A stretch of DNA of 34,836 nucleotides from a virus. The notes under the pieces were generated by a model. It did not search any database. It worked only from the letters and a program-made list of their open reading frames with translations, and was not told the origin of the DNA. Position 1 is the stretch's first letter; the number at the start of each line of letters is the position of its first letter. The stretch covers positions 1-34,836 of IMG/VR virus record IMGVR_UViG_3300017706_002651. One strand, written 5' to 3'. Both the position numbers and the translations under genes were made by a program. Shown here in pieces: positions 1,458 to 31,283 of the stretch.

Positions 1458-1466
1458 TTTTTCTCC

Positions 1467-2849: not shown

Positions 2850-2850
2850 A

Positions 2851-3813: not shown

Positions 3814-4981
3814 TATGTAATGCCTCCATTTCTACAAAAGATTCTGCATCTATGTCTGGATCATTATTAAACTTTTTTGTCATGCAAACATCTAGGGCAT
3901 CTAGAATGTATTCGCGATATTGTGGGCTATTAATTAATTCATAAAAATCAGATTTTCTAAACTTTTTATCTTCAACAATTTGATTCGTTTTTGTATCGAT
4001 AACAGTAAATTGTTTCCAGGCACCAGTACCAGCTATATTGATTTCTAAGTTGCCAACTTCGTATGGGCTTGATTTTCTTAGAGTATCAAACATTTGTTCG
4101 TGCTCGAATATGCCTTTTCCAAAATGTATTTCAAATTCACATTTTCTAAATGGAAATGCAACTTTATTTTTAATTGTTTTTGCTGAAACATTAATTCCAA
4201 TAACATCATCGCCGTCTTTGATCTGTTGACCTGCACCTAATTTGATTCTAATTGAACTATGAAAAGGAATTGCCTTGCCTCCAGGGGTTGTTGTAGGATC
4301 ACCGTACATTACACCAATATTTGTTCTAATTTGATTCAAACAGATAAATAAAACCCTTTGATCACCAATAACACCTGTTATTTTTCTCATTCCTTTTGAA
4401 ATAGCTCTTGCTTGCAATCCAATACTATTTTTATCATAATCACCATCAAGCTCAGCTTTAGGTGCCGACGCTGCAACGGAATCCCAAATAATTGTTACGG
4501 GTATATCCTTATCAATAGATTTGGCTTTTAGAATAGTAGACTCAGCGATAGAGAGCACTTCTTCTGTGCAATGAGTATCAACATATACAAATCTTTCTGA
4601 TATGTTTACACCTAGGTTTCTTAGGTTTTCTACTGAAGTGCCGTTTTCAGTATCAATATAAACAACAATACCACCTGATTGTTGTGTACTCCTTGCCAAT
4701 TGAGTTGCAATATGAGATTTTCCAATGGAAGGTGGTCCAAATATTTCGACAATTCTTCCTTCTGGTAATCCTCCATTTTTTCTATTAGAACAAATATAAT
4801 CAAGCATCATGGAACCTGTTGATATCCAGCGTTTAACATGTGTAGGAGAGTCTCCATTGGAAAGGTTATACGCTACTTGTGTTCCATGCTCTTTGTTTAG
4901 AGCCTTAATCAAATCTTTTGTAAAGTCATCATTATTTGTAACTTCTTCTTTATTTATGTTTTTTTTGCTTTTTTTAGCCAT
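3800..4981 (-). CDS. uvsX: RecA/UvsX-type recombinase
   Basis: A strand-exchange protein for recombination-dependent replication and repair. I take the ATG at 4981 (393 residues, starting MAKKSKKNIN) because AGAGGAG lies 6 bases upstream; a longer reading from 5026 has no such site and would run through the promoter. Seen: Walker A GPPSIGKS (about 82-89), the Walker B segment VTIIWDSVAAS (Asp167), and RecA loop motifs NQIRTNIGVMYGDPTTTPGG, with a GLQARAISKGMRK segment like that of bacterial RecA. The C-terminus has an acidic stretch (DPDIDAESFVEMEALHNE). Length is near T4 UvsX (391), but motif wording is closer to cellular RecA. It is the first gene of a recA / 5' nuclease / helicase / nrdJ operon with its own promoter. 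Confidence 0.93.
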   Translation of the reverse strand: MAKKSKKNINKEEVTNNDDFTKDLIKALNKEHGTQVAYNLSNGDSPTHVKRWISTGSMMLDYICSNRKNGGLPEGRIVEIFGPPSIGKSHIATQLARSTQQSGGIVVYIDTENGTSVENLRNLGVNISERFVYVDTHCTEEVLSIAESTILKAKSIDKDIPVTIIWDSVAASAPKAELDGDYDKNSIGLQARAISKGMRKITGVIGDQRVLFICLNQIRTNIGVMYGDPTTTPGGKAIPFHSSIRIKLGAGQQIKDGDDVIGINVSAKTIKNKVAFPFRKCEFEIHFGKGIFEHEQMFDTLRKSSPYEVGNLEINIAGTGAWKQFTVIDTKTNQIVEDKKFRKSDFYELINSPQYREYILDALDVCMTKKFNNDPDIDAESFVEMEALHNELK

Positions 4982-5003
4982 GTAGTCTCCTCTTGTTGTT
5001 TTT

Positions 5004-5032
5004 ATTATAAACAAAAATAGACGCATTTACAA
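5004..5032 (-). promoter_or_regulatory. Sigma70-like promoter of the recA operon
   Basis: Read on the minus strand: -35 TTGTAA (5032-5027), 17-base spacer, -10 TATAAT (5009-5004), then the ribosome site and ATG at 4981. The -35 overlaps the T-tract of the SSB terminator, so transcription of SSB ends and the recA operon begins in about 60 bases. It has the same layout as four other promoters in this window. Confidence 0.6.
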
Positions 5033-5058
5033 AAAAGGCCAAGGAATACTTGGCCTTT
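5031..5058 (-). terminator. Rho-independent terminator after the SSB gene
   Basis: On the minus strand a perfect 10-bp stem AAAGGCCAAG / CTTGGCCTTT with loop TATTC is followed by a run ending TTTTTT. It lies 16 bases after the SSB stop codon. A second weak 6-bp hairpin (AACCTA / TAGGTT, 5065-5080) overlaps that stop codon. Confidence 0.88.
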
Positions 5059-5073
5059 AAACTCAACCTATTT

Positions 5074-5838
5074 TTAGGTTAAATTAGCAAATGCGTCATC
5101 TAGTGATGAATATGCCTTTGATTCACTTTCTTTTGATTCTGTAGAATTGCTTCCAAAGCTTTTCTCAGTACCATCAGATGTACTATCTTCTCCATTTAAC
5201 CAGTCATTAATGATTTTTGACAGCTCTTCATAAGATTGCAACTGAAATAATGCTTCTGGATCAGGAATTGAATCTATCCATGTTTTCATCTGTTCTTCGT
5301 TGCTTGAAAGCTGAGAAGTTTTCATTCTTGGTCTAACAGAAGTTGTTGCCCATTGTCGGCCCGGTGTTTTTGTAGAAGAAACTGTGATATCTCGACCCGA
5401 ATACGGATCTGTAAAATCTCCTACATCCTCATCAGCTAAAAGCGTATAGAGTTCGGAATATACTGTTTTTCCAAATCCCCAGATTTGCACACCTTTCTCT
5501 TCTTCGCCTCGAACTACGACTGGTGCATAAATTCTCATTTTAGGATACAACTTTTTTAACAAGTCTTTATTTTCATCAGTTCTTTCATTTCTTAGTTTAT
5601 TAATAAGCTCTTGAAAGGGATCGGGCTTTCCAAACTGGTGCGGTGCTAAAATTCCTCTGTTTTTACCAATATTGTAATAAAAGTAAAACTCTTTAAAAGG
5701 AAGACCATCATCTGTTTTAAATGAAAGCATTCTAATGTTTGTATCTTGGTTTTCAGTCGGTCGCCAGTATTGGGTTCCTGTTTGTTTTCCTTGAAGTTTT
5801 GCTAGTTTGTTTCGAATTGCGTTAATGTCTAATGCCAT
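5074..5838 (-). CDS. 32: Single-stranded DNA-binding protein, T4 gp32-like
   Basis: A 254-residue protein that coats single-stranded DNA during phage replication and recombination. Seen: a basic N-terminal helix (INAIRNKLAKLQGK) like the gp32 cooperativity domain, an aromatic-rich core (KEFYFYYNIGKN, YPKMRIYAPVVVRG, QIWGFGKTVYSELYTLL, DPYSGRDITV) typical of the gp32 OB-fold, and an acidic Ser-rich tail ending SSLDDAFANLT, the place where gp32 contacts partner proteins. Length is a little under T4 gp32 (301). Odd: the protein has no cysteine at all, so the zinc ribbon of T4 gp32 is absent. It is transcribed alone: own promoter upstream, strong terminator downstream, and AAAGGAG before the ATG. 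Its neighbours (polymerase, recA, helicase) fit the role. Confidence 0.85.
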   Translation of the reverse strand: MALDINAIRNKLAKLQGKQTGTQYWRPTENQDTNIRMLSFKTDDGLPFKEFYFYYNIGKNRGILAPHQFGKPDPFQELINKLRNERTDENKDLLKKLYPKMRIYAPVVVRGEEEKGVQIWGFGKTVYSELYTLLADEDVGDFTDPYSGRDITVSSTKTPGRQWATTSVRPRMKTSQLSSNEEQMKTWIDSIPDPEALFQLQSYEELSKIINDWLNGEDSTSDGTEKSFGSNSTESKESESKAYSSLDDAFANLT

Positions 5839-5923
5839 TATGTTTCTCCTTTGTATTTAATGATTTTTGTGATTAATTGTTGTTGTTTGTTTTAAAATAT
5901 TTCTTTTTTTTAACCACATTTAT

Positions 5924-5952
5924 ATAATAATAAAAATGGTTATGGTTTACAC
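5924..5952 (-). promoter_or_regulatory. Sigma70-like promoter of the SSB gene
   Basis: Minus strand: -35 GTGTAA (5952-5947), 17-base spacer, -10 TATTAT (5929-5924), about 86 bases before the SSB ATG at 5838. It lies in the AT-rich gap 5839-6015, in which I see no gene. The long A-rich leader downstream could carry translational control, as T4 gene 32 mRNA does, but I see no clear pseudoknot. Confidence 0.5.
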
Positions 5953-6015
5953 AATGAAATATTTTTTGTGTGTTTTTGTGAAACCGGTAATTTTTGTTAC
6001 TAGTATTATATGAAA

Positions 6016-7134
6016 TTAGTAAAATTTGTAACCAGTAGGAAGCATGCTTTTATTGTGTTTTTTAATGTTTGAAGGTGTTGATAGCTTTGGAACATAACCA
6101 GCTATACTTGCAGTTGTCATAGCTTCATCTATTTCGCTTTCACAGATACAAGCTTCGTTAGTACAGCCGCAACTAGAACACTCATCAGTCCTTTTTTTTA
6201 ACGTCAAGCCCACTTCTTCGAGTTGCTCTTTTAAAAGAGAAAAAACTTCTTGGTGGACCATTTCATTGATTTTTTGTATAGATGATTTAGGCTTGCCTTC
6301 TGAATCATACTGAGGCACCATTTTAAAACCCTTTGATGTAACTTTATTATTATAATCAATTTCATTTTTGTATATGTGGTTATCAACTTCTTTAGAAAGC
6401 TCTTCGTTTTCAATATTGTGCACGTTTTCTTTAAATTCGCTAGAATATTCATCTTCAAAAAATTTATCATCAAATAAATCAATTAATTTCTTTTTCATAT
6501 TTTTTCCTTCTTTTAAGTTAGATATTTTATAATTTTTAATAATTTCTATCATAGCAGATTTTACAAGTTCTAAAGAACGGCTAGAAGTTATATAAATCTT
6601 AAAATAACCACTAGAATCTGGATCCACCCATGAATCTTTAATGCTGCCTTCTATAAAAGGATGATTACCTCTATTTTTAAAAACAGGTTCTACAACTCTT
6701 AGCGTAGGTTTTGCAAAAGGTAAAAAGCTAGCACTCCATTTTTTACCACTAATCTCAGGAATTCCATTGTAACCTGTAGGATCGATTTGTTTTAAAAAAG
6801 GAACAATTTCTCTTTTAACAAACAAATCTATTGTTTTTAAATTCATGTTTTTTGACTCCCTAAGCTTATATTTACCGTTAAAAGGTACTTTACTTCTAAT
6901 TAGGTCTTCTTCTCTAAATGTTTCTAAATCTTCATTTTCTGGAAACATAATAGAATCACTATCATCAATGTGAACTCTAAGCTGACCCATCTTTTTACTA
7001 AATTGTGCATCAGCTGTACCTTCAAACCCACCTCCGCTAATTTTTGGAGGATTCATATCCTGGTTTAGACTTGTTGATAAACCATCTCCTGATCCTAATC
7101 CACCTAGATGTGATACGTGTCGATTTGATTTCAT
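6016..7134 (-). CDS. Unknown phage protein with C-terminal cysteine cluster
   Basis: A 372-residue protein I do not recognise. The N-terminal 75 residues are Gly/Ser-rich and probably flexible (HLGGLGSGDGLSTSLNQ). The middle part (about 80-210) looks folded, with YFKIYITSSRSLELVKSAMIE near its end. An acidic, Lys/Asn-rich linker follows. The C-terminus carries CSSCGCTNEACIC, six cysteines in 13 residues that could bind zinc, then a basic tail ending LPTGYKFY. An internal ATG at 6498 (MKKKLIDLFDD) has AAGGA 7 bases before it and could give a second product of about 160 residues. It lies between the polymerase and SSB genes, 8 bases after the polymerase stop, so it probably shares the polymerase transcript; a DNA-metabolism or structural role are both possible. 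Confidence 0.75.
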   Translation of the reverse strand: MKSNRHVSHLGGLGSGDGLSTSLNQDMNPPKISGGGFEGTADAQFSKKMGQLRVHIDDSDSIMFPENEDLETFREEDLIRSKVPFNGKYKLRESKNMNLKTIDLFVKREIVPFLKQIDPTGYNGIPEISGKKWSASFLPFAKPTLRVVEPVFKNRGNHPFIEGSIKDSWVDPDSSGYFKIYITSSRSLELVKSAMIEIIKNYKISNLKEGKNMKKKLIDLFDDKFFEDEYSSEFKENVHNIENEELSKEVDNHIYKNEIDYNNKVTSKGFKMVPQYDSEGKPKSSIQKINEMVHQEVFSLLKEQLEEVGLTLKKRTDECSSCGCTNEACICESEIDEAMTTASIAGYVPKLSTPSNIKKHNKSMLPTGYKFY

Positions 7135-7142
7135 GCTTTTCC

Positions 7143-8351
7143 TTATGTTATCTCTTTTATAATTATAGGGAATTTATTGTTAAATCCTGTTACTTCAATA
7201 CTTTTTTGATTTAGATTTTTCATAATCACTTCATTTGCTTTTTCGTCCACATCTATTAACATTGCATCATGAATAAACCCTATTATTTTAAAGTTTAAGC
7301 TCGCTTTTTTAAGTATGCTATTTATTTTTTCAAAGCAAAACATTGAGACATCAACACCTGTTGATTGCAAGTAATAGTTTACATTTGATGATGAGTTTTT
7401 AAGTTTTCTACCATAAAAGTTTGTAAAGTAATTTTCTTGCATTTCAGATTTTATTTTTACAACAAGTTCGTGATATCCCATGTTTGATTTAATTCTTCCT
7501 ACTATGTCTTCAATATCGTAAAGCCAGTCCATATTTTTAAGGTCTTTTTTAATAGTATGCATACTTGCACCATAAAGTATTTTAAATGTTAGCTCTTTTA
7601 CAAAGTTTCTTTGTATTTCATCAATTTCACCATATCCATTATCATCAATAACAGTTTGTGCAATCCAAGTGTAAATATCTTCTGGAACCTCTTTATTAAA
7701 CATTCCCATAAGAATTCTTGGCTCTAAGTTTTTAATATCTATTTCTAGAATACTTCCATTATTATATGAAGATTTAAATATGTTTCTATTTTCTTTTTTG
7801 AGTGTCAAGATATTAGGACCATTTGTTACTGTCATTCTTCCTGTCGCAGAATTAAAGATAGAATATTCTATTGTTTTAAAATATTTTCTATTATCTTCCA
7901 GGTTGTTTAAAAACTTTTTAGCATGATACTTCTCAATTGATGAAAGATATTTTAAAAGATTTTTCTCAGATATTTTTGCAGGTTTTATTTCTTTAAATAA
8001 CTTATAATGATTTTGTGAAATATCTGTATAATACTTGTTTAAATTGTTTTCATTAAAAGATTTTGTTTGTTTCAACAAAAGACTGCACATTTTAACAAAC
8101 TTTTCAACACCTAAAACTTTAGACCAATCAGGATTTCTTTTAATAAATCCCCACATATTTCTATATTTTAAAGGTATGTCTAGCTCTAGTTCAACACCTG
8201 CATTTTTTGAAAAATAAGAAATAGAATCAGGGTTATTAGTTTTACAAATTACAATATCTGATTTTATTTTTTTTCTATTTATTAGTTTAAGATCTTTGTT
8301 AAAAATTAAATCTTTTTCTAATCCTGTTATTTTATTTGATATACAATACAT
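7143..8351 (-). CDS. Compact family A DNA polymerase domain, no exonuclease
   Basis: A 402-residue stand-alone polymerase of the Pol I family. Seen: the SATGRMTVTNGPNI segment (168-181) equivalent to TGRLSS..PN in Pol I; motif A ILEIDIKNLEPRI with catalytic Asp205, Glu210 and Arg212; motif B with perfect R-xxx-K-xxx-F-xxx-YG spacing (Arg248, Lys252, Phe256, Tyr260, Gly261); the O-helix-distal NYYLQSTGVDV (Gln329); motif C GFIHDAML with His361 and Asp362. The two catalytic aspartates are present, so it is likely active. Odd: motif C reads HDA, not HDE, and there is no room for a 3'-5' or 5'-3' exonuclease. Known: phage RM378 of Rhodothermus is reported to encode exonuclease and polymerase on separate genes. 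A proofreading partner may lie outside this window. Confidence 0.92.
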   Translation of the reverse strand: MYCISNKITGLEKDLIFNKDLKLINRKKIKSDIVICKTNNPDSISYFSKNAGVELELDIPLKYRNMWGFIKRNPDWSKVLGVEKFVKMCSLLLKQTKSFNENNLNKYYTDISQNHYKLFKEIKPAKISEKNLLKYLSSIEKYHAKKFLNNLEDNRKYFKTIEYSIFNSATGRMTVTNGPNILTLKKENRNIFKSSYNNGSILEIDIKNLEPRILMGMFNKEVPEDIYTWIAQTVIDDNGYGEIDEIQRNFVKELTFKILYGASMHTIKKDLKNMDWLYDIEDIVGRIKSNMGYHELVVKIKSEMQENYFTNFYGRKLKNSSSNVNYYLQSTGVDVSMFCFEKINSILKKASLNFKIIGFIHDAMLIDVDEKANEVIMKNLNQKSIEVTGFNNKFPIIIKEIT

Positions 8352-15272: not shown

Positions 15273-15410
15273 TTATTTTTGTTTTTGGGTTTCAAGAATT
15301 TTTTTAATTTTTTTAAAAAACTTTTCTTCTTTATCAATGACGCTAATATCACCACCAATATTTTTTAAATATTCTAAAAACTTTTTATTTAAGATATCTT
15401 CGTATTTCAT
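15273..15410 (-). CDS. Small 45-residue lysine-rich protein overlapping the tape-measure stop
   Basis: An ORF of 45 codons starting MKYEDILNKKFLEYLKNIGG and ending KKIKKILETQKQK. Its ATG overlaps the TGA of the tape-measure gene (ATGA), a strong sign of translational coupling, and it fills most of the gap before the next gene. It is predicted helical and strongly basic. No function is known to me; a small tail-assembly accessory is possible. It is too short for coding statistics, so the overlap is the main support. Confidence 0.55.
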   Translation of the reverse strand: MKYEDILNKKFLEYLKNIGGDISVIDKEEKFFKKIKKILETQKQK

Positions 15411-17479
15411 TTTAAAAACCCGAGTTGTGTTAATCTGTTGTCTACACCCTGTAAAACAACATTGTCAAGTACCAGCTTACCAGAGTTTCCTAGATTTAAT
15501 TCTGGAGAAATTGAAACGTTATTTTGAATTGGTGTCTCTTTACTTTTCTGCAATTCTACAAGTATATTCTTTTGAATTGTTGTTAATTCTCCTATGGCAT
15601 CAACGAGCGCCTGATTTTCTGCTTTAATAATAAGATCAGCATCAATTTTTCCGCCTTTTAACATTTTTTCTTCTGCAGGATCAAAATTAACTTTAACGTC
15701 AACAGTTGCTGCATTTTGAATTTTTTCTTTTAAGTTTTTAGACCATTTAACTTCTGTTTCATTTGCAAAAGCATTAATTGCATTACCTGATTGCACTTCT
15801 AGCGGAGAAGGGCTCTGTCTTTTTGTAAAAGCAAAGGCATTTTTCCAGCTTGTGCTAATGTTGTCAAAAGCTTCTGATTGTGATATAAAACCTAAATCTT
15901 CAATTATTTGATCTTTATCAACATCAAGACCTGTAACTTTAATTGTTTGTTCTTCGTTTATTTTATCAAAAATTTCATTAAAGCTTTCTGAATTTGTTAC
16001 ATTATCAAATGATGCTAAAAGTTCTTTTGCTCTTTTCTTGGTAGCTTCAGTCGCCCCGTCAGCACCAATAATTTTATCCATCGTTTCTTTAAACTTTTTA
16101 ATAGCCTCTTGTCTTTCATTACCGGTTTTTGTTGCTATGTCTCCTGTTAGCTGTGCAAACTCTTTTACTTTTTTAGCATCGCCGTCAAATAGCTTTAATA
16201 TTGTATCATCACTTGCAATAAATTCCTTTATATCTTGGTTTAAATCTTTAAACTTCATAAAGGTTTTATCAATTGCAATTTCATACATGCTTTGCCCGCG
16301 CTCAAGTGCAATATCGACAACTGATCTGGTGTCAATAATAGACTCTTGAAGATCTGCAACCACCTTGGCAGCGCTTTCAGCACTATATCCAGTTGCACTA
16401 ACAGAATCTGCTATGATGCCGCCAATGCTTACCTGAGAGTCAAATAGCTTTTTAGCATCGTTAATAGACATGTTTAGAGTTTTTGCAACAAGGGTAATCG
16501 AATGACCCATTTGTTCAGAATCCATACCTGCTTCAAACATAGAGTTTCTAATCATGTCAACAAAGCCAGCTTGATCTTCAAATGCTTTATTCATTAACGT
16601 TATCGGATCAAGTGAAGCACCAAAAGCCCCACCGAGGTCTCTTGCAAGCGAAGCAGCACCTTCAAATGTTTGTGCTTTACCCACCAGGGCATCAATACCG
16701 CCAGTAGTCATTTGTAGTTGACCTAAAGTTGCACCAAACTGGGAAATCGCCTCTTCACTAGCAGCACCGTATTTTTCATAATCTGCCATCGCAGCTGTAA
16801 TATTGTTTGTAATCTGATAAATACTTGCTGCAGTTTGCTGAGAATATGCCTCGGCATAGAATGCAATTTTCTTAAAAACTTCATCAGTTACTTTTCCAGA
16901 ACTTGCCATTTGATTATCAATAATCCCAAGAAAGTCTTCATTATTAATTCTTAATGCTCTTTGTATTGTAAGAGTATTAAGCATCATTTCCGTACCTTTT
17001 TCGGTTTCTTTGGCATAGTCCTGTGCAATTCTATTAATATAGAATGAGTTTACATCATATATTTCTTGAAGTTCTTTTCTAGCTTGTGCTGCAGATCCAA
17101 ACACACCTACAATAGTTCTATCACCGATAAGTCTATCAGCATCATTTGCCATCTCAGATATCAACCTAGCTTGTGACTTTACTGTAAAAGATACAAAGTT
17201 TTCATATTTGCCTGTAAAATAATCAAATGTCCCACCGTACTTACCAATTGCATCTTCAATAGAGTCAGCAAGGGTTGACTTTATAACTCTATCTCCGTAC
17301 ATAGGTGTAACATCTTTTGTTGTGCTTCTGCTACTTGAAGATCTATCTGTTATTGTATTGTCAGAACGAGTTCTACTTCTATTTCTGTCTACGCCACCAG
17401 TGCTAATAGAATCTCTATCATCTAGTTTTTGATTTAGCTTTTGTAGTGTTGCCAGTATTTTTTCGTCTGTATCTGCCAT
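15407..17479 (-). CDS. Tail tape-measure protein (gp29-like role)
   Basis: A 690-residue protein, almost entirely predicted helical, that would fix tail length and lie inside the tube. Seen: a Ser/Arg-rich, disordered N-terminal stretch (about 28-58), then Ala-, Gly- and Ser-rich helices (for example SLARDLGGAFGASLDPITLM and SVSATGYSAESAAKVVADLQ, about 270-390), and a charged C-terminal part. Long, low-cysteine helical sequence directly after the tail-chaperone frames and before baseplate genes is the usual place of the tape measure. At 1.5 angstrom per helical residue, 690 residues would span about 100 nm, similar to a T4-class tail. Its ribosome site AAAGGAG is inside the end of the frameshift ORF, 6 bases before the ATG. 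I see no clear membrane-pore segment or hydrolase motif. Confidence 0.82.
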   Translation of the reverse strand: MADTDEKILATLQKLNQKLDDRDSISTGGVDRNRSRTRSDNTITDRSSSSRSTTKDVTPMYGDRVIKSTLADSIEDAIGKYGGTFDYFTGKYENFVSFTVKSQARLISEMANDADRLIGDRTIVGVFGSAAQARKELQEIYDVNSFYINRIAQDYAKETEKGTEMMLNTLTIQRALRINNEDFLGIIDNQMASSGKVTDEVFKKIAFYAEAYSQQTAASIYQITNNITAAMADYEKYGAASEEAISQFGATLGQLQMTTGGIDALVGKAQTFEGAASLARDLGGAFGASLDPITLMNKAFEDQAGFVDMIRNSMFEAGMDSEQMGHSITLVAKTLNMSINDAKKLFDSQVSIGGIIADSVSATGYSAESAAKVVADLQESIIDTRSVVDIALERGQSMYEIAIDKTFMKFKDLNQDIKEFIASDDTILKLFDGDAKKVKEFAQLTGDIATKTGNERQEAIKKFKETMDKIIGADGATEATKKRAKELLASFDNVTNSESFNEIFDKINEEQTIKVTGLDVDKDQIIEDLGFISQSEAFDNISTSWKNAFAFTKRQSPSPLEVQSGNAINAFANETEVKWSKNLKEKIQNAATVDVKVNFDPAEEKMLKGGKIDADLIIKAENQALVDAIGELTTIQKNILVELQKSKETPIQNNVSISPELNLGNSGKLVLDNVVLQGVDNRLTQLGFLK

Positions 17480-17482
17480 TTT

Positions 17483-17725
17483 TTACTCCTTTGAGAATCG
17501 ACGATACATTTTTTCAATGTTATCATCAGGTCTTTTCAGTTCGTGTTCATTGGATTGTTTTTTAAGAGCCAATTGTTGTTTTTCATGATCGGCTATAATT
17601 CTATCTATATACCAACGACGATATCTCACAGGAAGTTTTTTAATTTCGGTATATGACATACCTAGGTTTTTTTGTAAAAAATAAAAGCTTTCAAGAAGTG
17701 TTTCTTGATAATTATAGGGCAGGCC
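17483..17725 (-). CDS. Frameshift extension of the tail-assembly chaperone (GT-like ORF)
   Basis: An open frame of 80 codons, from GLPYNYQETLLESFYFLQKN to YRRFSKE, with a strikingly protein-like core MSYTEIKKLPVRYRRWYIDR. It begins at the end of the T8 run inside the upstream gp26-like gene and is in the +1 (equal to -2) frame relative to it. Its only early ATG (17659) lies mid-ORF with no ribosome site ahead of it, while the frame stays open back to the T-run. Inference: it is made as a C-terminal extension of the 287-residue protein by ribosomal slippage, as in the G/GT tail chaperones of lambda and Mu, which also sit between the tube and tape-measure genes. The alternative is independent start at 17659 (58 residues) or a homopolymer error in the assembly. 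Confidence 0.72.
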   Translation of the reverse strand, partial: GLPYNYQETLLESFYFLQKNLGMSYTEIKKLPVRYRRWYIDRIIADHEKQQLALKKQSNEHELKRPDDNIEKMYRRFSKE

Positions 17726-18575
17726 AAAAAAAAGAGATTCCTATCGGAAGGTCTATCATATTGTTCGTATTACATCCATGACAGTAGAGGGGGACCTCCA
17801 TCGATATTCCGGGTTTATGTTTTATTATATGCCGCCTAAGCTTTGAAGAATCAAGTGCAGGCATTTTATTAATAAACATTGCAATTTTTGACCTATCCCT
17901 GATCCCGTCAATTGAGACAATATGAGCTACGAGGCTGTCTGTTATGTTCCCCTCAATATATTCGTTACCAAACAGCGCTTTTTTCCTTTCTTTCTCAATT
18001 GTCATGTTTTGATCATCTCTGATCGTTAAAAATTTAAATACTACTGTTTTTTTAGAAACAGGTAGTTGAAATTCAAATTCGTTGACGCCCTCAGCAATAG
18101 GATTTAATTCGAGTCTTTTGATTTCAAGTTCAGATAAATCAAATTCTTTTTCTTTATGTCTCATTCCGCAATTAGGACAGTTAACAGAGGCTTGGTAAGC
18201 TGTTCCGTAGCCTGTAATCCTAATTGATACCATTAATGCGTCTCGATCACCCTTAAGCAATGAATCTACATCAATATTTTTATTTATTAAACAAGATTTA
18301 ATAAGTTCATCAACAACAGTTCCTTTTTTAATAAAGGCCCTACTAGTTAAAATGTCTTCTTCTCTAGCAGTCATTGATTTAATTTCTAGACCTTTTACAC
18401 CGCTAAGACCCGATTCGCTAGAGTAAACGAGACCTTCTGACGGAACTGGTACTAATTCAACAGGTATTTCCCAGTTAAAATCATCTTTTGATACATTTCG
18501 AATATGATTGGCAGCAACTTCTGACGATTGCTGATTTTCTGCACCTTGCGTAAATATTTTGTTGGACTCTCTCAT
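17712..18575 (-). CDS. 26: T4 gp26-like baseplate/tail-assembly protein with zinc ribbon
   Basis: A 287-residue protein of the T4 baseplate gp26 family. Seen: an N-terminal helical part with PVELVPVPSEGLVY and SMTAREEDILTSRAFIKKG (about 38-85), then a zinc-ribbon made of CPNC (Cys133, Cys136) and CHGC (Cys265, Cys268), ending LPIGISFFWPAL. Zinc binding is inferred from the paired CxxC. In T4 gp26 is listed as a baseplate hub assembly protein. Here it sits between tube and tape measure, where other tailed phages keep the tape-measure chaperone. Codons 282-283 (Phe-Phe) lie on a run of eight T residues leading into the downstream open frame, so a minor product of about 363 residues is expected. 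An AGGAG site precedes the ATG. Confidence 0.85.
   Translation of the reverse strand: MRESNKIFTQGAENQQSSEVAANHIRNVSKDDFNWEIPVELVPVPSEGLVYSSESGLSGVKGLEIKSMTAREEDILTSRAFIKKGTVVDELIKSCLINKNIDVDSLLKGDRDALMVSIRITGYGTAYQASVNCPNCGMRHKEKEFDLSELEIKRLELNPIAEGVNEFEFQLPVSKKTVVFKFLTIRDDQNMTIEKERKKALFGNEYIEGNITDSLVAHIVSIDGIRDRSKIAMFINKMPALDSSKLRRHIIKHKPGISMEVPLYCHGCNTNNMIDLPIGISFFWPAL
17726..17733 (-). promoter_or_regulatory. Candidate ribosomal frameshift site (eight T run)
   Basis: Minus strand codons are ATC TCT TTT TTT TGG CCT GCC CTA TAA. The P-site tRNA-Phe on TTT can re-pair on TTT after a +1 or a -2 slip, and both lead into the 80-codon frame starting GGC CTG CCC. A -1 slip leads to a stop after about 21 codons. 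The zero-frame stop is only 5 codons downstream. Confidence 0.65.
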
Positions 18576-18633: not shown

Positions 18634-19125
18634 TTAATATTGTAAAACACAATTATCAAATCTAAGTGTCAAATCAATTGACATAGGTTCAGCATCATTA
18701 TCGTATGATAGGGATTGAAAATTAGCACTTGTAATAAATGCGCCTTTAATGTCCCAAAGCTCAACAACAGTTCCAACAGGATCTAGCATTTTAATTTGAC
18801 AATCTCTTTTATAAAAATCTGCATATCCAGCTCTTCCAGATACAGACTCTGTATGGGTTCTAATCCACTCCATTACTTGTTGGGCACCTGATGGGGCAAT
18901 TGGATCGTGAAGATTTACGTTCATTGTTCCAAATGTCAATCTTCCTGCAAGATATCTTTTTGAGTTAATAAAGTTTAGTGTAGTTTCAGCAATCTGGTAA
19001 GAAGGTCTAGATGCAGATTTCATTAAAAAGGCGTCAATACCTTCAATTGAAAAAACCCACCTAAACTGTCTTTTAGGTTCAAATTTATTTGGTAGCATAT
19101 CTACTACAGAAAGTGTCTCAGCCAT
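18634..19125 (-). CDS. 19: Tail tube protein, gp19-like
   Basis: A 163-residue protein, the same length as T4 gp19, that polymerises into the inner tail tube. Seen: KRQFRWVFSIEGIDAFLMKS near the N-terminus, the central GRLTFGTMNVNLHDPIAP, GAQQVMEWIRTHTES, and the C-terminal strand EPMSIDLTLRFDNCVLQY, all typical of gp19-like tube proteins (wording such as strand, helix, then final beta hairpin). It follows the sheath genes and precedes the chaperone pair and tape measure, as in T4-like genomes. A CGGAGG site lies before the ATG. The 67-base gap upstream contains the ATACTTATA element. Confidence 0.93.
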   Translation of the reverse strand: MAETLSVVDMLPNKFEPKRQFRWVFSIEGIDAFLMKSASRPSYQIAETTLNFINSKRYLAGRLTFGTMNVNLHDPIAPSGAQQVMEWIRTHTESVSGRAGYADFYKRDCQIKMLDPVGTVVELWDIKGAFITSANFQSLSYDNDAEPMSIDLTLRFDNCVLQY

Positions 19126-19192: not shown

Positions 19193-22100
19193 TTAAATTT
19201 CTGCGCCTGCATTAGTAACTACAAAGTCAAGAGAAACAAACTCAATTGTTTTTGTAGGTTGCAATAATATCTTTCCTCTAACTGTGTTGTTTTCAACGTC
19301 AGCTTGAGTTGTAGTAGTTGTATCAATTACAACTTTATACCTGGAAAGACCTTGATTATCCTGAACATTTTGAAGAATAGGATCTACAAGGGATTTAAAC
19401 TTACTAAGTGTTTCTTCTCTATTAGGTTCAAATATGATTTGATTTGCAGCATCTCTAACAAGTCTTCTAATTTCAATAAGAAGTCTTCTAACATTTACTC
19501 TATCAAGAGCATTGGATGATTGTTGTAATGTTTTCTGCCCCCATATTACAAGGTTTGTTCCTGCAAAAGAAGTAATTGGGTTAATTTTAGAATCATACAA
19601 ATCATCAAGATTTTCTTGGTTTAATGCCATTGTACTTTGTACTGTTGTTTGCAAAGAAGTCCTAGAAAAACCTGCCGGTGCAAACCAGGGATGACCAATA
19701 GAATCATTTTGTGAAAATGCCCCTAAAACAACCACACTAGGCGGAACAGTTAGGTTTGTAGCTCTATCGGGATGTTGTATAATAATGTCAGGAAAATAAG
19801 CTGCAGCAAACGATGTATTAAGGCCTCTATTTTTAAAACTTTCTATTGTACTAGAAATGTCAGGATTTTGCAAAGAGCTTGTAATAACTGTATTGTTAAC
19901 ATCTTTTTCTTGAGTATCCATTATATACATTGCATCAAATCTAGATTCCATAGCAGAAATAGCATAATCTGTAACGCCTAGATTTCTTTGGCCTGGCACT
20001 GCAAGAAGCTTAATGTCAACATCAGCGTCTGTAGCCATGATATCTATAGCTTTTCTGTAGGCTGCAACTGTTGGACCAGAAACTCCACCTTGATCAGCTT
20101 CATTTGTATACTCTCTATGAGCTGCTGCATCAGTTAGTTTTGATTTCTCTTCATCAAATACGTTTACACCATTCCAACCACCTTGTAAGAATGTGGTAAA
20201 TTTAGCATATTTTCTATTTGCAACTTTTGTTAAATCTGAAACCTTTAGTGCTCTTGTTTTGGCAGCTGAATTAGGATCATTTGCAATAATCCCGTTTCTT
20301 ACGTAAACAGAATCTATCCACTTAGTTGGATCAGCCTTTGTATCGGATCCTGTAACAACTTGGACTTTATCTAAAGCAAACATATTGTTATTAAAAGTAT
20401 CAGCATCAACATTTCCAAGATAATCGCTTACTGCTGTTCCTGCATTGTCACCAACCCACATGTTAGCAACATCAGATCTAAAATCTCCAAAATATTTTGC
20501 AAAGTTTGAAATAGCTGTAGAGGATGAAAATGTTTTATTAGGATCTGTTGTAGATTGCACTTTAGAGAATTGAGGGCCCCAGTATATACCTGCATTAAGT
20601 TTTGCACTTGATCCTGCTCCAACCTTTAAATGTTGAATCATTGGAACTGGTGGTTGAACAATTGAATCACCAATTGCGCCAGACGCCACTAGTGCATTGC
20701 CTCTTTCATCAGGTAATAGCAGTGCTGATCCCGATGTTTGTAAGTGATAATGACCTCTAAACCCAAACGGAATTGCAGCAGCTGGTGCTTGACCTTCTTT
20801 TAGCTGGCTACTTGGTTCAATCCTAATATAATTACTATTGTTTGTATATTCCCCTTCAACAAGTATTGATTGAGATTCTTCGCTGTCATCAAAGTTAAAA
20901 CTTATTTTTTGATCACCAACAACTCTGCATATATATCTTTCAGAATTAAGATCCAAATTAACCTTTGAAAAAGATTCTAAAATTGAAGGATTTCTGTCTG
21001 TATCTTCAAAATCCCTTATAACAAGATCAAAACTTCCATATTCGTTTTGAGGATCTGTTGATGGCTTAATATTTTGAATAGATACTTTAAATTGATCAGA
21101 TGGACCTAATCCATCTGACAAAGCTGTAACCTTAAATAAGTCGTGTCTTGTTCCCATGTCTTGAGATATAAACATAGGCGAAAAAGCTCTTTGATATCTA
21201 TTTTCAAAATTTTCAAAATTAGGCTGTTGTGCTGTTCCTGCATTTCTATCAGCAGAACCTGTTAATAAAAATGAAATTGGTTCACCATTGGCATTAGCAC
21301 CTTGGGATATAGCACCACTACCAGTAGGTATTGCTTGAGACCTGTAAACAGGAAAATCAGCATATAGATAGTGACCTTTTTCTTCAATTTTTGTTGGATC
21401 TGTATTTAGAGAATTTGCGATATATTGAGGAGAGTCAGGATCAAAAGAAAACTGTATAGATCTATTGGTGCTTTGATTATAGCCATTCAAGTACAATGTA
21501 GCTTGATGACCGTTTGTTATGGATCCGGTTGTTGCGCCTCTTGGGCCAGCTGCAGTGGCAATTGTTGCCTGCCCGGGGGCAGTGTCTGTGACGCTGGCTT
21601 GACCATGATCTGCATGTGCTTCTAGCTTAAGATTAACACCTTGAGGGGCAAATATAACTCCTCTAGCAATAGGAACAGATCCACCTAGACCACCTAGAAA
21701 TGACTTTGTACCGCTTCCTTCGCCTGGATCGTTTCCAGGTGGATTAATTTGAACATTGTCATTTGCAAAAATACCGGCAGATCCTGCTATAATAGTATTT
21801 CCATTTTTACCACCAACAGTTCTTGTTAATACTAATTTTCTTGTGTTGCCATTTGCATCAGCAGCCAAAGCAGGAACTGTGTCTATATTTTTAATGTTGT
21901 TAGCTGCAACAGCTGCTATTATTGCTGTTCTAATTTCTGCTATAAATGTATCTGCATTTGTTGCTGCAGATTGATCAATTCTAGTAGCATTGCTTGCTCC
22001 AGCTGATACTGTTAATGTATGTTTTGTACCGTCCATATTGTGAAACACTAGAGACTCTCCACCAATACCGTTCGCAGCATGAGTTGTTATAACAACAGAT

Positions 22101-22600
22101 GCTTTTGAAGGCCCTGGCTGTACACCTGCATCTGATAAAAATGTTGAACCATTTGATTCTGACATTAAGCAGCCAACGAAATAAGTTCTGGCAGCAGTTT
22201 GCAAAGTTCCGTTTGCATAAATGTTATTTCCAATATTACCAGTTCCTTGAACTAGTTTTTGCCCAACAACAAAACCTGCGTTTGTTACGAGACCAGATGC
22301 TGCTTTTTGTTTTCCATCACCAGCACCTAAAACTCTAATATATGTACCCGCCGATGCGTTTCTTAACCATTCTCTTAGTGCAATTGGTCCAAACTCATTA
22401 CCTTTTGAGTCTCCAAACTTTCTAATAAGCTCCGAAGAATTTGGAACTGTCACGGGGACAAAAGCGGGACCGCTTTTTGCTGTCCCGATAACGCCAGCCG
22501 GAACCCCAGTAGGTTCTAATTGAGGCGGTGCTGTAACAGCTGAAAGATCTATTTCATTGGCTTTTACGCCCGCACTTAGTCTTGTAATTTTTTCACTCAT
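19193..22600 (-). CDS. 18: Tail sheath protein paralog B, gp18-like
   Basis: A 1135-residue contractile-sheath protein. Seen: N-terminal GVPAGVIGTAKSGPAFVPVT and TYIRVLGAGDGKQ, a long variable insert region (about 120-480, Asn/Gly/Ala-rich), and the conserved C-terminal sheath core with RDAANQIIFEPNREETLSKF, YKVVIDTTTTTQADVENN, GKILLQPTKTIEFVSLDFVV. This core threads strands between neighbouring subunits in T4-type sheaths. It is longer than T4 gp18 (659). It lies 30 bases after a second sheath gene and 67 before the tube gene. The N-terminus lacks the SPGF(F)xxE start found in the neighbour and in gp18, which may mean a specialised role, for example at one end of the sheath or as a surface-decorated subunit. 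Confidence 0.88.
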   Translation of the reverse strand: MSEKITRLSAGVKANEIDLSAVTAPPQLEPTGVPAGVIGTAKSGPAFVPVTVPNSSELIRKFGDSKGNEFGPIALREWLRNASAGTYIRVLGAGDGKQKAASGLVTNAGFVVGQKLVQGTGNIGNNIYANGTLQTAARTYFVGCLMSESNGSTFLSDAGVQPGPSKASVVITTHAANGIGGESLVFHNMDGTKHTLTVSAGASNATRIDQSAATNADTFIAEIRTAIIAAVAANNIKNIDTVPALAADANGNTRKLVLTRTVGGKNGNTIIAGSAGIFANDNVQINPPGNDPGEGSGTKSFLGGLGGSVPIARGVIFAPQGVNLKLEAHADHGQASVTDTAPGQATIATAAGPRGATTGSITNGHQATLYLNGYNQSTNRSIQFSFDPDSPQYIANSLNTDPTKIEEKGHYLYADFPVYRSQAIPTGSGAISQGANANGEPISFLLTGSADRNAGTAQQPNFENFENRYQRAFSPMFISQDMGTRHDLFKVTALSDGLGPSDQFKVSIQNIKPSTDPQNEYGSFDLVIRDFEDTDRNPSILESFSKVNLDLNSERYICRVVGDQKISFNFDDSEESQSILVEGEYTNNSNYIRIEPSSQLKEGQAPAAAIPFGFRGHYHLQTSGSALLLPDERGNALVASGAIGDSIVQPPVPMIQHLKVGAGSSAKLNAGIYWGPQFSKVQSTTDPNKTFSSSTAISNFAKYFGDFRSDVANMWVGDNAGTAVSDYLGNVDADTFNNNMFALDKVQVVTGSDTKADPTKWIDSVYVRNGIIANDPNSAAKTRALKVSDLTKVANRKYAKFTTFLQGGWNGVNVFDEEKSKLTDAAAHREYTNEADQGGVSGPTVAAYRKAIDIMATDADVDIKLLAVPGQRNLGVTDYAISAMESRFDAMYIMDTQEKDVNNTVITSSLQNPDISSTIESFKNRGLNTSFAAAYFPDIIIQHPDRATNLTVPPSVVVLGAFSQNDSIGHPWFAPAGFSRTSLQTTVQSTMALNQENLDDLYDSKINPITSFAGTNLVIWGQKTLQQSSNALDRVNVRRLLIEIRRLVRDAANQIIFEPNREETLSKFKSLVDPILQNVQDNQGLSRYKVVIDTTTTTQADVENNTVRGKILLQPTKTIEFVSLDFVVTNAGAEI

Positions 22601-22630: not shown

Positions 22631-25600
22631 TTAGACAAAATCAATACCTGAATTAGAAATAACAAAATCTATTGCAACAAATTCTATTGCCCTGGTAGGA
22701 ACTAATACAATTCTTCCATTTAAAACATTGTTATCAATATCTGTTTGTGTATTATTGGTAGAGTCAATTACAACTTTAAATTGGTCAATACCTTGATTTT
22801 CTTGAATTCCTGCCAATGCATCAGAAACTTTTTTATGATACATTGATCTAACTTCAGGTGTGTTTGCTTCAAAAATAAACCCAATTGAAATATCTGCTAC
22901 AATTCTTTTGACTTCTAGTAACATTCTTCTAACATTAACCCTATCCAAAGAAGTTCTTGCTTTTTGTAATGTTTTTTGTCCAGATATTACGTATCCACTT
23001 TTTGGAAATGTTGAAATAGGATTTATTCTTGCTTCGTATGCAACATCTCTTTCATCCTTGTTTAACCTAGCTCTTGCGCTTGAAACAAAGCTTAGAGACC
23101 CTCTGTTAAATCCAGCAGGTGCAAACCAAGGAAAAGAAGTATTATCGTTAAAACCTATTGCAGACAATGCAGCAACTGTTGCAGGCATTAATTTTCTTTT
23201 CCCATCATCTTCAACAACTACATCTGGAAAATATGCAGCAGCGTAAGAAGTATCGTAGTTTTTATCAGAAAAGCTTTCTATTGATTTTCTAACATTAACA
23301 TTACCAGGTGTATCTTCATACATTCTAGTTTCATTTGAATTAATATGTGGCACATCAAGAAGAAGTAAGGCTTTGCCGTATTCCTCTATTCTTTCTATTG
23401 CGTGTGATATAAGTTGATCTGATCGTATTCCAGGAAACGTTAAAATATTAATTCTTGATTGTGCAGGATCTGTTAATAAATTAACAGCAGATTTGTATGA
23501 ATTAACGTATGAATTTGAGTCCCCTGTTCCAAAATTCATTGTCAAACCAATGTCAGGTGAATTAACTCCTTTTCCTCCCGTGTCTGACGAAGAAGCTTTG
23601 TCATTCATAACAGCCTGATCTTTGTCTAAAATATTAGTACCATCAAAACCGCCATAAAAAATATTAGTAAACTTAGTATAGTCAGAAAATCTATTAAAAT
23701 AAACTGAAGATGTTAGTGACATTAAAGACGCAAGCGTTAATCTTTCTTTTGCATGAAGGTCATCAGATACCGAATAATCATTGCCATTAACAACAGCATC
23801 TCTAAGATAAGCTGCATTTTTCATTTCATCTCTAGCAGAGCCTGTTAAGAAATGTGCGTAATTTGATAAAGTTTCATTTTCATGTAAAAACTTACCTAAA
23901 CTAACTCTAGCAAGTGTAAACTTATTGTGGTTAAAGTCATCAGCCCCAGAACCTGTTACTAAGGCATCTAGCTTTTGTATACCTAAAAATTTAGACATAT
24001 TATCCAAGAGATCGTTATATACAATGGATTCATTTGCCCTATTGACAGGTGATGATATTTCACCAACTGCAGGTATTCTTTCAAATTTAACTCCCCATGA
24101 AAGACCTTTTATTGAGCTTTCGTTTAGTGAGCCTTCGCCTATGTATTTAAAATCACCAGTAGTGTTTCCTCTGGCTTCTCCAGTTGTTACTTTATATCTA
24201 AAAGGAATTGGAGGTAAAATAGATCCAATCATAGCAGCAGAGTCATTTGTTCCAATACTTACTCTTGACATTCTTACTACTGATGTTTGCTGATCGAGAT
24301 TGGCTGTAGAGGGTTCTGCATCAAAAGTCTTAAGCAATGGCAAGCCTCTAAAGCCAAAAGGTGCAGCATGATTAGGAACCTCACCTCTTTCCAGGGCATC
24401 CGATAAAACAACTCTAATTCTTGCTGATTTATTTGGATAGGTTCCTTGAATTGTCAGTCTTCTTTCTTTTGAAAGTGTTGTATCAAAATTATATAAAAGC
24501 TTCATATCGCCTATTTTATTGGCAATAAAGTTTTCGCTATTTGGATTTAAGTCGCAATTAATAAAACTTTCAATAATTTGTAATGAAGTATCCAGATCTC
24601 TTTTTGCACGCAACTCAACATCAAACATCGGGTATGGGTTTTCATCATCATCTGATTTTCTAATATTTGCAATAGAAATCTTATAAAGGTCATTTGCGTG
24701 TTTTCCGTCGTCTATGCACTCAAAATGAAATAAATCATATTCAATTTTTCCAAAAGGTTGTGATATAAAGCTTGTAGTTTTAGGCGCCTGATATCTTGCC
24801 TGAAAGTTTCCAAAAATTGTTGAAAACATTTTATTAGACTTCACAGACCTGCCTGCAGATCCACTTAAAAGACCTATTGTTACATCTGCTGCCGGAGTTG
24901 CTTTTAAGGGTGCAAGCTCGTTTTCAATAGGAAAATGTGCATATAACAAGTGCTGGTCTTGTTGAAATCTTGCAGGATCAGTATTCAAAACCTTGGATAT
25001 ATAGGCATCGCTAGAGGGATTCAAAGAAGCAGAATATACTTTTACACCGCTAAATCCGTTGTTTGTTCCAATAGATGAATCGCTCGATGTTAAAAGAAGT
25101 TTAAACTTTCCAAACATTTCATTACTTTGTGCAGCAGTTATCGTAGAACCTGTAAAATCTTTATTTGTTTTAGGGTCAAACTGGGCATCATGATTAAGTG
25201 TAATAAACTTAGACCCAGACGTAGTAAACAAAACGCCTCTAACAATGTAAGGATCATTTGAAAGAGTTGTATTCTGAGAAGCAAAAATTGGATAGCCAAC
25301 AGCTTCAATAGCAGCCACATCGTGCTCAGCACATAAAAATTGGACTTCTCCAAAAGCATTTTTGCCTGTTCTATTTGTATCTCCTGACGAAGTTACAACA
25401 AAGCCAGCATTTTGGACTGTACCTAGTATTTCAGTGTCACCAAAGTGAGACTCAGTTGTATTTGCACCTGCACCTAGGACTCTTACAAAGGTTAGTGCAT
25501 CTCTATGTTCTAAATATTTTTTTACCGCCAGTGTTGATGGATAATCTGTCTTCGCTTCACCAAAAATTTCAACAAATCTTTCATAGCTATTTACTGTAAT

Positions 25601-25741
25601 TGGTGTAAATGCAGGACCCTTCTCAGAGAAACCAACAACCCCTGCAGGAACTGTTGTAATAATTTGATCAAGGTTTTGTCTTCTTTCTGTTACGATTTCA
25701 GTATCAAAAAATCCTGGGGACTTAAAAGTCTGTTCGGCCAT
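22631..25741 (-). CDS. 18: Tail sheath protein paralog A, gp18-like
   Basis: A 1036-residue sheath protein. It begins AEQTFKSPGFFDTEIVTERR, the usual sheath N-terminal strand (SPG..xxE), followed by VPAGVVGFSEKGPAFTPITV and TFVRVLGAGA. The C-terminal core has FDGTNILDKDQAV, SFPWFAPAGFNRG, QKTLQKARTSLDRVNVRRML, IGFIFEANTPEVRSMYHKKV and QFKVVIDSTNNTQTDIDNN, all standard sheath motifs. It differs from the downstream paralog mainly in the middle insert. Of the two, this has the more canonical N-terminus and is probably the main sheath subunit. It follows the gp15-like gene, and an ATACTTATA element lies 36 bases before its ATG, next to a GAGGAG ribosome site. Confidence 0.93.
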   Translation of the reverse strand: MAEQTFKSPGFFDTEIVTERRQNLDQIITTVPAGVVGFSEKGPAFTPITVNSYERFVEIFGEAKTDYPSTLAVKKYLEHRDALTFVRVLGAGANTTESHFGDTEILGTVQNAGFVVTSSGDTNRTGKNAFGEVQFLCAEHDVAAIEAVGYPIFASQNTTLSNDPYIVRGVLFTTSGSKFITLNHDAQFDPKTNKDFTGSTITAAQSNEMFGKFKLLLTSSDSSIGTNNGFSGVKVYSASLNPSSDAYISKVLNTDPARFQQDQHLLYAHFPIENELAPLKATPAADVTIGLLSGSAGRSVKSNKMFSTIFGNFQARYQAPKTTSFISQPFGKIEYDLFHFECIDDGKHANDLYKISIANIRKSDDDENPYPMFDVELRAKRDLDTSLQIIESFINCDLNPNSENFIANKIGDMKLLYNFDTTLSKERRLTIQGTYPNKSARIRVVLSDALERGEVPNHAAPFGFRGLPLLKTFDAEPSTANLDQQTSVVRMSRVSIGTNDSAAMIGSILPPIPFRYKVTTGEARGNTTGDFKYIGEGSLNESSIKGLSWGVKFERIPAVGEISSPVNRANESIVYNDLLDNMSKFLGIQKLDALVTGSGADDFNHNKFTLARVSLGKFLHENETLSNYAHFLTGSARDEMKNAAYLRDAVVNGNDYSVSDDLHAKERLTLASLMSLTSSVYFNRFSDYTKFTNIFYGGFDGTNILDKDQAVMNDKASSSDTGGKGVNSPDIGLTMNFGTGDSNSYVNSYKSAVNLLTDPAQSRINILTFPGIRSDQLISHAIERIEEYGKALLLLDVPHINSNETRMYEDTPGNVNVRKSIESFSDKNYDTSYAAAYFPDVVVEDDGKRKLMPATVAALSAIGFNDNTSFPWFAPAGFNRGSLSFVSSARARLNKDERDVAYEARINPISTFPKSGYVISGQKTLQKARTSLDRVNVRRMLLEVKRIVADISIGFIFEANTPEVRSMYHKKVSDALAGIQENQGIDQFKVVIDSTNNTQTDIDNNVLNGRIVLVPTRAIEFVAIDFVISNSGIDFV

Positions 25742-30291: not shown

Positions 30292-30324
30292 TTTTCCTCC
30301 ATGGTTTAAAAAATGATTAATATC

Positions 30325-30353
30325 ATTATAATTATTAATTATATATATTACAA
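30325..30353 (-). promoter_or_regulatory. Sigma70-like promoter in the divergent gap (minus side)
   Basis: Minus strand: -35 TTGTAA (30353-30348), 17-base spacer, -10 TATAAT (30330-30325), 34 bases before the ATG at 30291. Its two hexamers are identical to those of the recA promoter. A plus-strand TATAAT at 30327-30332 overlaps it and could serve the divergent plus-strand genes, but without a good -35. Confidence 0.58.
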
Positions 30354-30381
30354 AAAAATGATTTTTTTTATAGGAGAAACA

Positions 30382-30948
30382 ATGACAAAAAAAGCATTAA
30401 TTAAACGGCTGGTCAAAGAGAGCATTTACAATAAGCATAATCACAATATTTTGGCAGAAATGGACATTGTATCTACGATTCAAGATATTTTGCCCTATGT
30501 TAACTATCTAATGAATATTGGGTTTTTAACATATCACGGAAGGAAGCTTCTTTTAAAAAAGTGTAGACAAAGTGAAGCTGCAAAAGAAGAAATTAAAAGA
30601 CTTGCAGCAAAAAAAGGTTTTTCTATAGAAAATTTTAAAAATAGTGCTTATTTAGATAAAACTCAAGTCAAAGGCAGTGAAGCTACAATAGCTAAGCCAG
30701 AAGATACTGATCATATTTCCTTTAATAGCGAGTACTTTTTTGATGAAGAAGAATCAACAGAAGAAGACAGCACATCGTTTGGCCTAACAGATGATACTCT
30801 TGGAGTTGATTATGGAACTAGCTTTCCAGCAGAAGATCCCGATACTGAAGTTAGAGAATATTTTCCTAAGCCTCGACCTCTAAACGAGCTCGAAGACTTT
30901 GTTAAAAATAAAAGAAAAAATTTAAAAAAATACTGGTCAAAGAAATGA
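30382..30948 (+). CDS. Unknown acidic protein, first gene of the plus-strand island
   Basis: A 188-residue protein of unknown role. I take the ATG at 30382 (MTKKALIKRLVKES) because TAGGAG lies 6 bases upstream; an earlier ATG at 30313 would add a stretch of low-complexity residues with no ribosome site. Seen: a basic helical N-terminal half (to about 85) including LPYVNYLMNIGFLTYHGRKL and ARKK-type basic clusters, then an acidic, probably disordered middle (YFFDEEESTEEDSTSFGLTD), and a basic end KNKRKNLKKYWSKK. The stop overlaps the ATG of the following HExxH gene (ATGA), so the two proteins are made together and may act together. Confidence 0.75.
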   Translation: MTKKALIKRLVKESIYNKHNHNILAEMDIVSTIQDILPYVNYLMNIGFLTYHGRKLLLKKCRQSEAAKEEIKRLAAKKGFSIENFKNSAYLDKTQVKGSEATIAKPEDTDHISFNSEYFFDEEESTEEDSTSFGLTDDTLGVDYGTSFPAEDPDTEVREYFPKPRPLNELEDFVKNKRKNLKKYWSKK

Positions 30949-31283
30949 AGACTATTATACTGCAAAATAGTAAAATACCTCAATACCTTTCAATTTTTAT
31001 CAACATAAGTGCAATTACACTATATCCTTTTATTATTTCTAAGGATGAAATGTCAGACACTACAATTAACCATGAAATGATTCACATAGAGCAGCAAAAA
31101 GAGCTCCTGGTGTTATTCTTTTACTTTTTATATGTTGTATATTGGCTAAAAGGCAAGATGTCAGGAATGACAAACGACGAGGCTTATTTTAATATTCCTT
31201 TTGAAAAAGAAGCATATACAAAAATGTATGATAAGGCTTATTTAGAAAAAAGAAAAATGTATGCCTGGAAAAAATATACTTAA
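30945..31283 (+). CDS. Small putative membrane-associated HExxH metallopeptidase-like protein
   Basis: A 112-residue protein with NHEMIHIEQQKEL, an HExxH zinc motif (His43, Glu44, His47), and a later acidic helix IPFEKEAYTKMYDKAY in which Glu87 or Glu89 could be the third ligand, the arrangement of gluzincin-like folds. Between them is a hydrophobic segment LLVLFFYFLYVVYWL (about 54-68) that could cross the membrane once. A second hydrophobic stretch (ISAITLYPFII, 21-31) precedes the motif. It is far shorter than normal peptidases, so it may be a minimal enzyme or a zinc-binding remnant. It is coupled to the upstream gene by ATGA and ends one base from the convergent minus-strand gene. I see no terminator between them. 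Confidence 0.75.
   Translation: MKTIILQNSKIPQYLSIFINISAITLYPFIISKDEMSDTTINHEMIHIEQQKELLVLFFYFLYVVYWLKGKMSGMTNDEAYFNIPFEKEAYTKMYDKAYLEKRKMYAWKKYT

Follow-up and report, generated by a model that had tools for sequence, protein, structure and literature searches.

Introduction

Long-tailed phages conserve tail-chaperone frameshifting as a translational signal, with T4 long the named exception: G-T frameshifting is described as widespread 'except T4', and shifts of -1, -2 and +1 all occur (PMC5009743). Proteins of the T4 gp26 type are elsewhere labelled 'baseplate hub subunit' in annotation. Vladimirov, Gautam and Davidson (2022, Virology 566:9-15) are said to have recognised T4 26 and 51 as TAC-N and TAC-NC, encoded by two separate genes, and reportedly found frameshifting to be conserved in several T4-like groups. 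The core idea of a frameshifted tail chaperone in T4-like phages is already known, and a further paper, citing Vladimirov et al., gives -1 as the direction of the poly-T signals known in T4-like phages (PMC12846349).

Slipping in the +1 direction on UUU_C has been shown for influenza A PA-X, at the site UCC_UUU_CGU, in a study that predicted further UUU_C sites as part of a broader class (PMC3498833). UUU is also among the best +1 codons in a randomised release factor 2 context (PMC10885494).

Here we examine a gp26-type gene in a window of viral DNA (the whole stretch analysed, 34,836 nucleotides; the source record is a 34.8-kb fragment). Comparison with relatives makes it very likely that a +1 programmed frameshift near the end of this gene yields two tail-assembly chaperones. 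Both frames, the slip codon and the gene order are conserved among the relatives, and no separate start of the second frame is.

The gp26-type gene and its neighbours

The features of the locus are as follows.

18634-19125, minus strand: gp19-type tail tube protein, next gene upstream of the gp26-type gene (PHROG 4542 tail tube, E=6e-28)
17712-18575, minus strand: putative TAC-N, T4 gp26-type, 287 aa, zero frame (Pfam PF12322 and PHROG 150)
17724-17735, minus strand: candidate shift site TCT TTT TTT TGG, slip codon UUU_U, T run at 17733-17726
17486-17725, minus strand: putative TAC-C, a +1-frame stretch of 80 codons that the proposed shift would append to gp26; predicted fused product 363 aa
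17657-17659, minus strand: in-frame ATG inside TAC-C, not a start, without a usable ribosome site
15407-17479, minus strand: 690-aa protein, probably the tape measure; next gene downstream, preceded by an AGGAG site of its own

The 287-aa protein belongs to the T4_baseplate family PF12322 (E=1.1e-16; 61.7 bits against a curated cut-off of 24.5) and also matches PHROG 150 'baseplate hub' (E=1.8e-17). It contains two CxxC pairs and has its own ribosome site, AGGAGAAATATG. The 3' end of its gene reads TCT TTT TTT TGG CCT GCC CTA TAA, with the zero-frame stop at 17714-17712, and its T8 run is the only one in the sense of the window's minus-strand genes. The +1 frame (GGC CTG CCC TAT ...) opens at the GGC at 17725 and continues for 80 codons to a stop at 17485-17483. 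Eight T residues near the end of the gp26-type gene, followed by an open second frame of 80 codons, had been reported in the initial annotation of this DNA, and both were confirmed where it had placed them.

The same annotation had likened the position of the two frames to that of the G/GT chaperones, between tail tube and tape measure, and comparison with relatives supports this. The tail tube is identified by profile, although its match to Pfam Phage_T4_gp19 (E=3e-5) falls under Pfam's cut-off. The 690-aa protein is probably the tape measure on the basis of its position and length; searches with Pfam and PHROG profiles gave no family match for it. An open reading frame of at least 200 aa comes next in 140 of the 146 relatives with enough sequence.

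Two tail sheath proteins are encoded upstream of the tail tube and, beyond them, a head-tail adaptor and the major head protein. The sheath genes adjoin each other on the minus strand (19193-22600 and 22631-25741); each product (1135 aa and 1036 aa) has a match to tail sheath profiles, and the genes are duplicated or paralogous. Within the structural block, two overlapping genes lie on the opposite, plus strand (30313-31283), the first with a weak carnosine N-methyltransferase match under Pfam's cut-off. Replication genes on the minus strand at 3-8351 include those for a family A DNA polymerase, RecA, a 5'-3' exonuclease, a DnaB-type helicase and a ribonucleotide reductase. This replication set accompanies T4-type head and tail genes and differs from T4's own family B polymerase set.

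Conservation of the out-of-frame join

The 3' end of gp26 was examined in two sets of relatives. Among the best 80 relatives in IMG/VR, the +1 join was kept in all but two (L065 and L069), and one further locus (L039) was cut off by a contig end. The +1 sites in this set read TTT TTT TGG, TTT CTT TGG or TTC TTT TGG, with the zero-frame stop three to six codons further on, and the +1 frames continue as a homologue of the 80 codons found in the window. The two exceptions join by -1: they carry AAT TTT TTC TGG, and the TAC-C homologue lies in the -1 frame. The second set, 80 loci related to Flavobacterium phage immuto and drawn from another part of the family, again had the +1 join, with TTT CTA TGG and TTT CTT TAC as rarer sites; L129 was cut off. 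Altogether, 141 distinct loci have the conserved join, 134 by +1 and 7 by -1. They are diverse, most rows of the fused alignment being 27-48% identical to the window. At the DNA level, no matches in cultured phages were found.

Cultured phages are represented among the relatives. Microcystis phage Mel-JY01 and Rhodothermus phage RM378 carry TTT TTT TGG, and immuto carries TTT CTT TGG. In Bacillus phage SP-15, Listeria phage LIS04, Streptococcus phage GXN1 and Streptomyces phage LuckySocke, the +1 frame also follows UUU_Y, in other contexts and without TGG. In three of these (SP-15, L088; LIS04, L090; GXN1, L086) the zero frame ends with a common CC CGA TT(C/T) soon after the UUU codons, and this CGA codon could be an alternative +1 shift point. 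Joining by -1 with T_TTT_TTC is found in Escherichia coli phage 121Q and in a 595-kb uncultured phage; the group with an X_XXY_YYZ heptamer comprises 121Q, L065, L069 and L094-L096. The window does not belong to this group, since its -1 frame closes after 20 codons and contains no TAC-C homologue.

A rule for the slip site and its direction

For each distinct locus we defined a slip interval, the one region in which a shift can work; it is bounded by the new frame's last stop on one side and the zero-frame stop on the other. This interval contains UUU_Y in frame (Y being C or U) in 134 of 134 +1 loci, and an X_XXY_YYZ heptamer in all seven -1 loci, so that the overlap contains a conserved slippery sequence, as in systems of the G/GT type. 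Background frequencies in windows of the same length from the same genes averaged 8.7% for UUU_Y and 18.7% for the heptamer, although such counts treat related sequences as independent and overstate significance. This simple sequence rule matches the direction in all 141 distinct loci. Before TGG, the P-site phenylalanine codon is TTT in 98 of 98 FF loci, against 70% TTT and 30% TTC elsewhere in the same genes. CUU_U was considered as a general slip codon and rejected: it fails in the TTT CTA TGG loci, and UUU_Y fits all.

These comparisons favour a programmed shift into the +1 frame, as first proposed from the window alone, and they refine two further points of that proposal. Conservation of the overlap and of the T run had been put forward as a check; the out-of-frame join is indeed conserved, but the length of the run is not, being mostly T7, with no more than T3 in 52 loci and T4 before TGG in three. 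What is conserved is UUU_Y, read in frame, rather than run length. The direction had been given as '+1 or -2', and the family variants favour the first. Frameshifting by -2, as known in phage Mu (PMC5009743), would lead into the same frame with one extra residue (ISFFFGLPY instead of ISFFGLPY), and the window's T8 would let tRNA-Phe re-pair at -2 with no mismatch. In the family variants TTT CTT TGG (45 distinct genes), TTT CTA TGG (four) and TTC TTT TGG (three), however, Mu-type re-pairing at -2 requires mismatches, whereas re-pairing at +1 on UUU_Y never does, and we regard a -2 shift as very unlikely.

The T run also calls to mind transcriptional slippage, in which mixed mRNAs would arise and the frames would be joined in the RNA. 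Runs of T7-T8 are long enough for slippage by RNA polymerase, and their presence in the family counts in favour of this route. Yet the 52 T3 loci and three T4 loci keep the same join without a long run. The 52 loci with no more than T3 exclude slippage by RNA polymerase as a general mechanism, and we consider it very improbable as the explanation of the join.

The direction of the shift appears to have changed during the evolution of the family. In a tree of 113 gp26 proteins, well-supported branches force a minimum of three changes of direction, with long branches leaving the deep part unsure; L065/L069 and L094/L096 are nested in otherwise +1 groups.

Stimulatory elements were sought around the site. 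Downstream sequences showed no RNA stem-loop beyond control level (z of -0.65 vs -0.74 in control stretches, for pseudoknot-free folding). A Shine-Dalgarno (SD) stimulator like that of release factor 2 was rejected, since only 47 of 100 loci have an SD-like core among the 18 nt that precede the slip. The zero-frame nascent sequence P-x-G-x-x-F-F is almost invariant, and either this peptide or slow decoding of the next codon (a single Trp) may act as stimulator.

Evidence for a proposed read-through from gp26 into the second frame

Substitutions in TAC-C among 16 pairs of relatives fall mainly on third codon positions (237/126/578 at positions 1/2/3). The same bias is found when the count is confined to codons that lie after the zero-frame stop and before the second frame's first possible start (37/24/121), and this pattern indicates that the +1 frame is under purifying selection upstream of any start of its own, with selection acting at the protein level there. 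Relatives also have in common the TAC-C motif G-L-x4-(K/R)-E-x2-L-E-x2-F-x-L ... P-x3-R-x-W-(F/Y).

Such selection is strong evidence against a separately started gene. Were the second frame a small gene with its own or a coupled ribosome start, the conserved join would be coincidental; public records do annotate it in this way, listing the C-terminal frame as a hypothetical protein of its own in immuto (L083, 3839-3949), Mel-JY01 (L082, 3809-4045) and RM378 (L191, 3201-3377). A start with an SD-like core within the first 40 codons is, however, present in just 11 of 100 loci, nearly all of them inside the conserved domain and mostly deep within it, and 42 of 100 loci also lack a start upstream of the slip. 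The second frame is thus conserved and overlaps the end of gp26 without a conserved start of its own, as expected of a G/GT-type arrangement, and a separate gene is extremely unlikely. The earlier view that the ATG at 17659 is internal, and that the frame has no start with a ribosome site, holds up well: the corresponding column in relatives contains M, F, I and other residues, so that Met is not conserved, and the frame is selected upstream of its first possible start. A homopolymer error in sequencing or assembly, at the T8 run of this single metagenomic contig, would mean that the two frames are really one continuous gene. The same out-of-frame join recurs across all 141 distinct loci, some of them from cultured phages and some with no long run; this refutes such an error in practice and leaves it a negligible probability.

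Structures were modelled for the fused protein and for TAC-C. AlphaFold2 modelled the fused window protein (363 aa) with a mean pLDDT of 86; values were high in the gp26 part and fell in TAC-C, for which the alignment, made of zero-frame relatives, had no depth. With a separate alignment of its own, TAC-C was modelled as four helices, with a pLDDT of about 95 at residues 11-50 and a mean of 84. Foldseek gave no PDB match for the models of the fused protein or of TAC-C; its matches in BFVD were other viral models of the gp26 type, including that of SP-15.

Proposed mechanism and significance

The conserved +1 programmed frameshift is very probably functional. Most ribosomes would end at the gp26 stop and release TAC-N, the short form of 287 aa. 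The remaining minority would be waiting for the next codon while the P site holds tRNA-Phe paired with UUU; the tRNA would then move one base forward and re-pair on the overlapping UUU or UUC, and reading on through TAC-C in the +1 frame would give a small amount of TAC-NC (363 aa). By analogy with lambda gpG/gpGT, TAC-N may coat the tape measure and TAC-C may recruit tail-tube subunits. In this scheme the occurrence and frequency of the shift, the slipping tRNA and the binding partners are inferred.

Outside the full text of Vladimirov et al. 2022, we found no earlier report of +1 shifting in this large group, of the UUU_Y rule or of switches in direction. What may be new is a family that shifts by +1 in most members and by -1 in a few; the apparent additions are that a large uncultured group shifts by +1 and that the direction has switched at least three times on the family tree. 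More tentatively, and with some doubt on our part, a lone UUU_Y, in most cases just ahead of (Y)UN UGG and unaided by RNA structure, might be the dominant and perhaps ancestral mode in a large, mostly uncultured T4-type group, driven, it may be, by the nascent peptide or by slow decoding of Trp, several switches between +1 and a -1 heptamer having come about by a few base changes and a compensating indel. The family offers a natural series for studying why ribosomes slip forwards in some cases and backwards in others at a near-identical site. Across these genomes, automated annotation probably calls the C-terminal half an orphan or misses it.

Comparison with known systems

With the T4-like tail assembly chaperones, the locus has in common the PF12322 family and the TAC-N/TAC-NC logic. 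A profile of the fused protein aligned with T4 gp51 over 218 columns, including the TAC-C helices, with a weak E-value of 0.01 (hhalign; 0.09 for the C-terminus alone), which by itself is no proof of homology. The locus differs from the T4-like poly-T signals, given as -1 in the paper cited above (PMC12846349), in that the window group shifts by +1 on UUU_Y.

The pair is best read as the putative functional equivalent of lambda G/GT, a likeness of layout. As in lambda gpG/gpGT, the shift site is close to the 3' end of a gene flanked by those for tail tube and tape measure, and a small C-terminal domain can be reached by the shift only. Unlike the window group, lambda shifts by -1; it makes its two products at a ratio of about 30:1 (PMC5009743).

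Other tailed phages also use +1 frameshifting in tail genes, among them the haloarchaeal myovirus HSTV-2 and Listeria phages PSA, A118 and A500 (PMC5009743); the shifts of PSA, in capsid or tail-shaft genes, occur on a proline codon, in contrast to the UUU of the window group. The proposed movement itself, a P-site slip of one base forward, resembles that of PA-X (UUU to UUC) and of release factor 2 (CUU_UGA; CUU to UUU). The A-site signals differ: a rare codon in PA-X, a stop codon in release factor 2, and mostly Trp UGG or Leu CUU/CUA in the window group.
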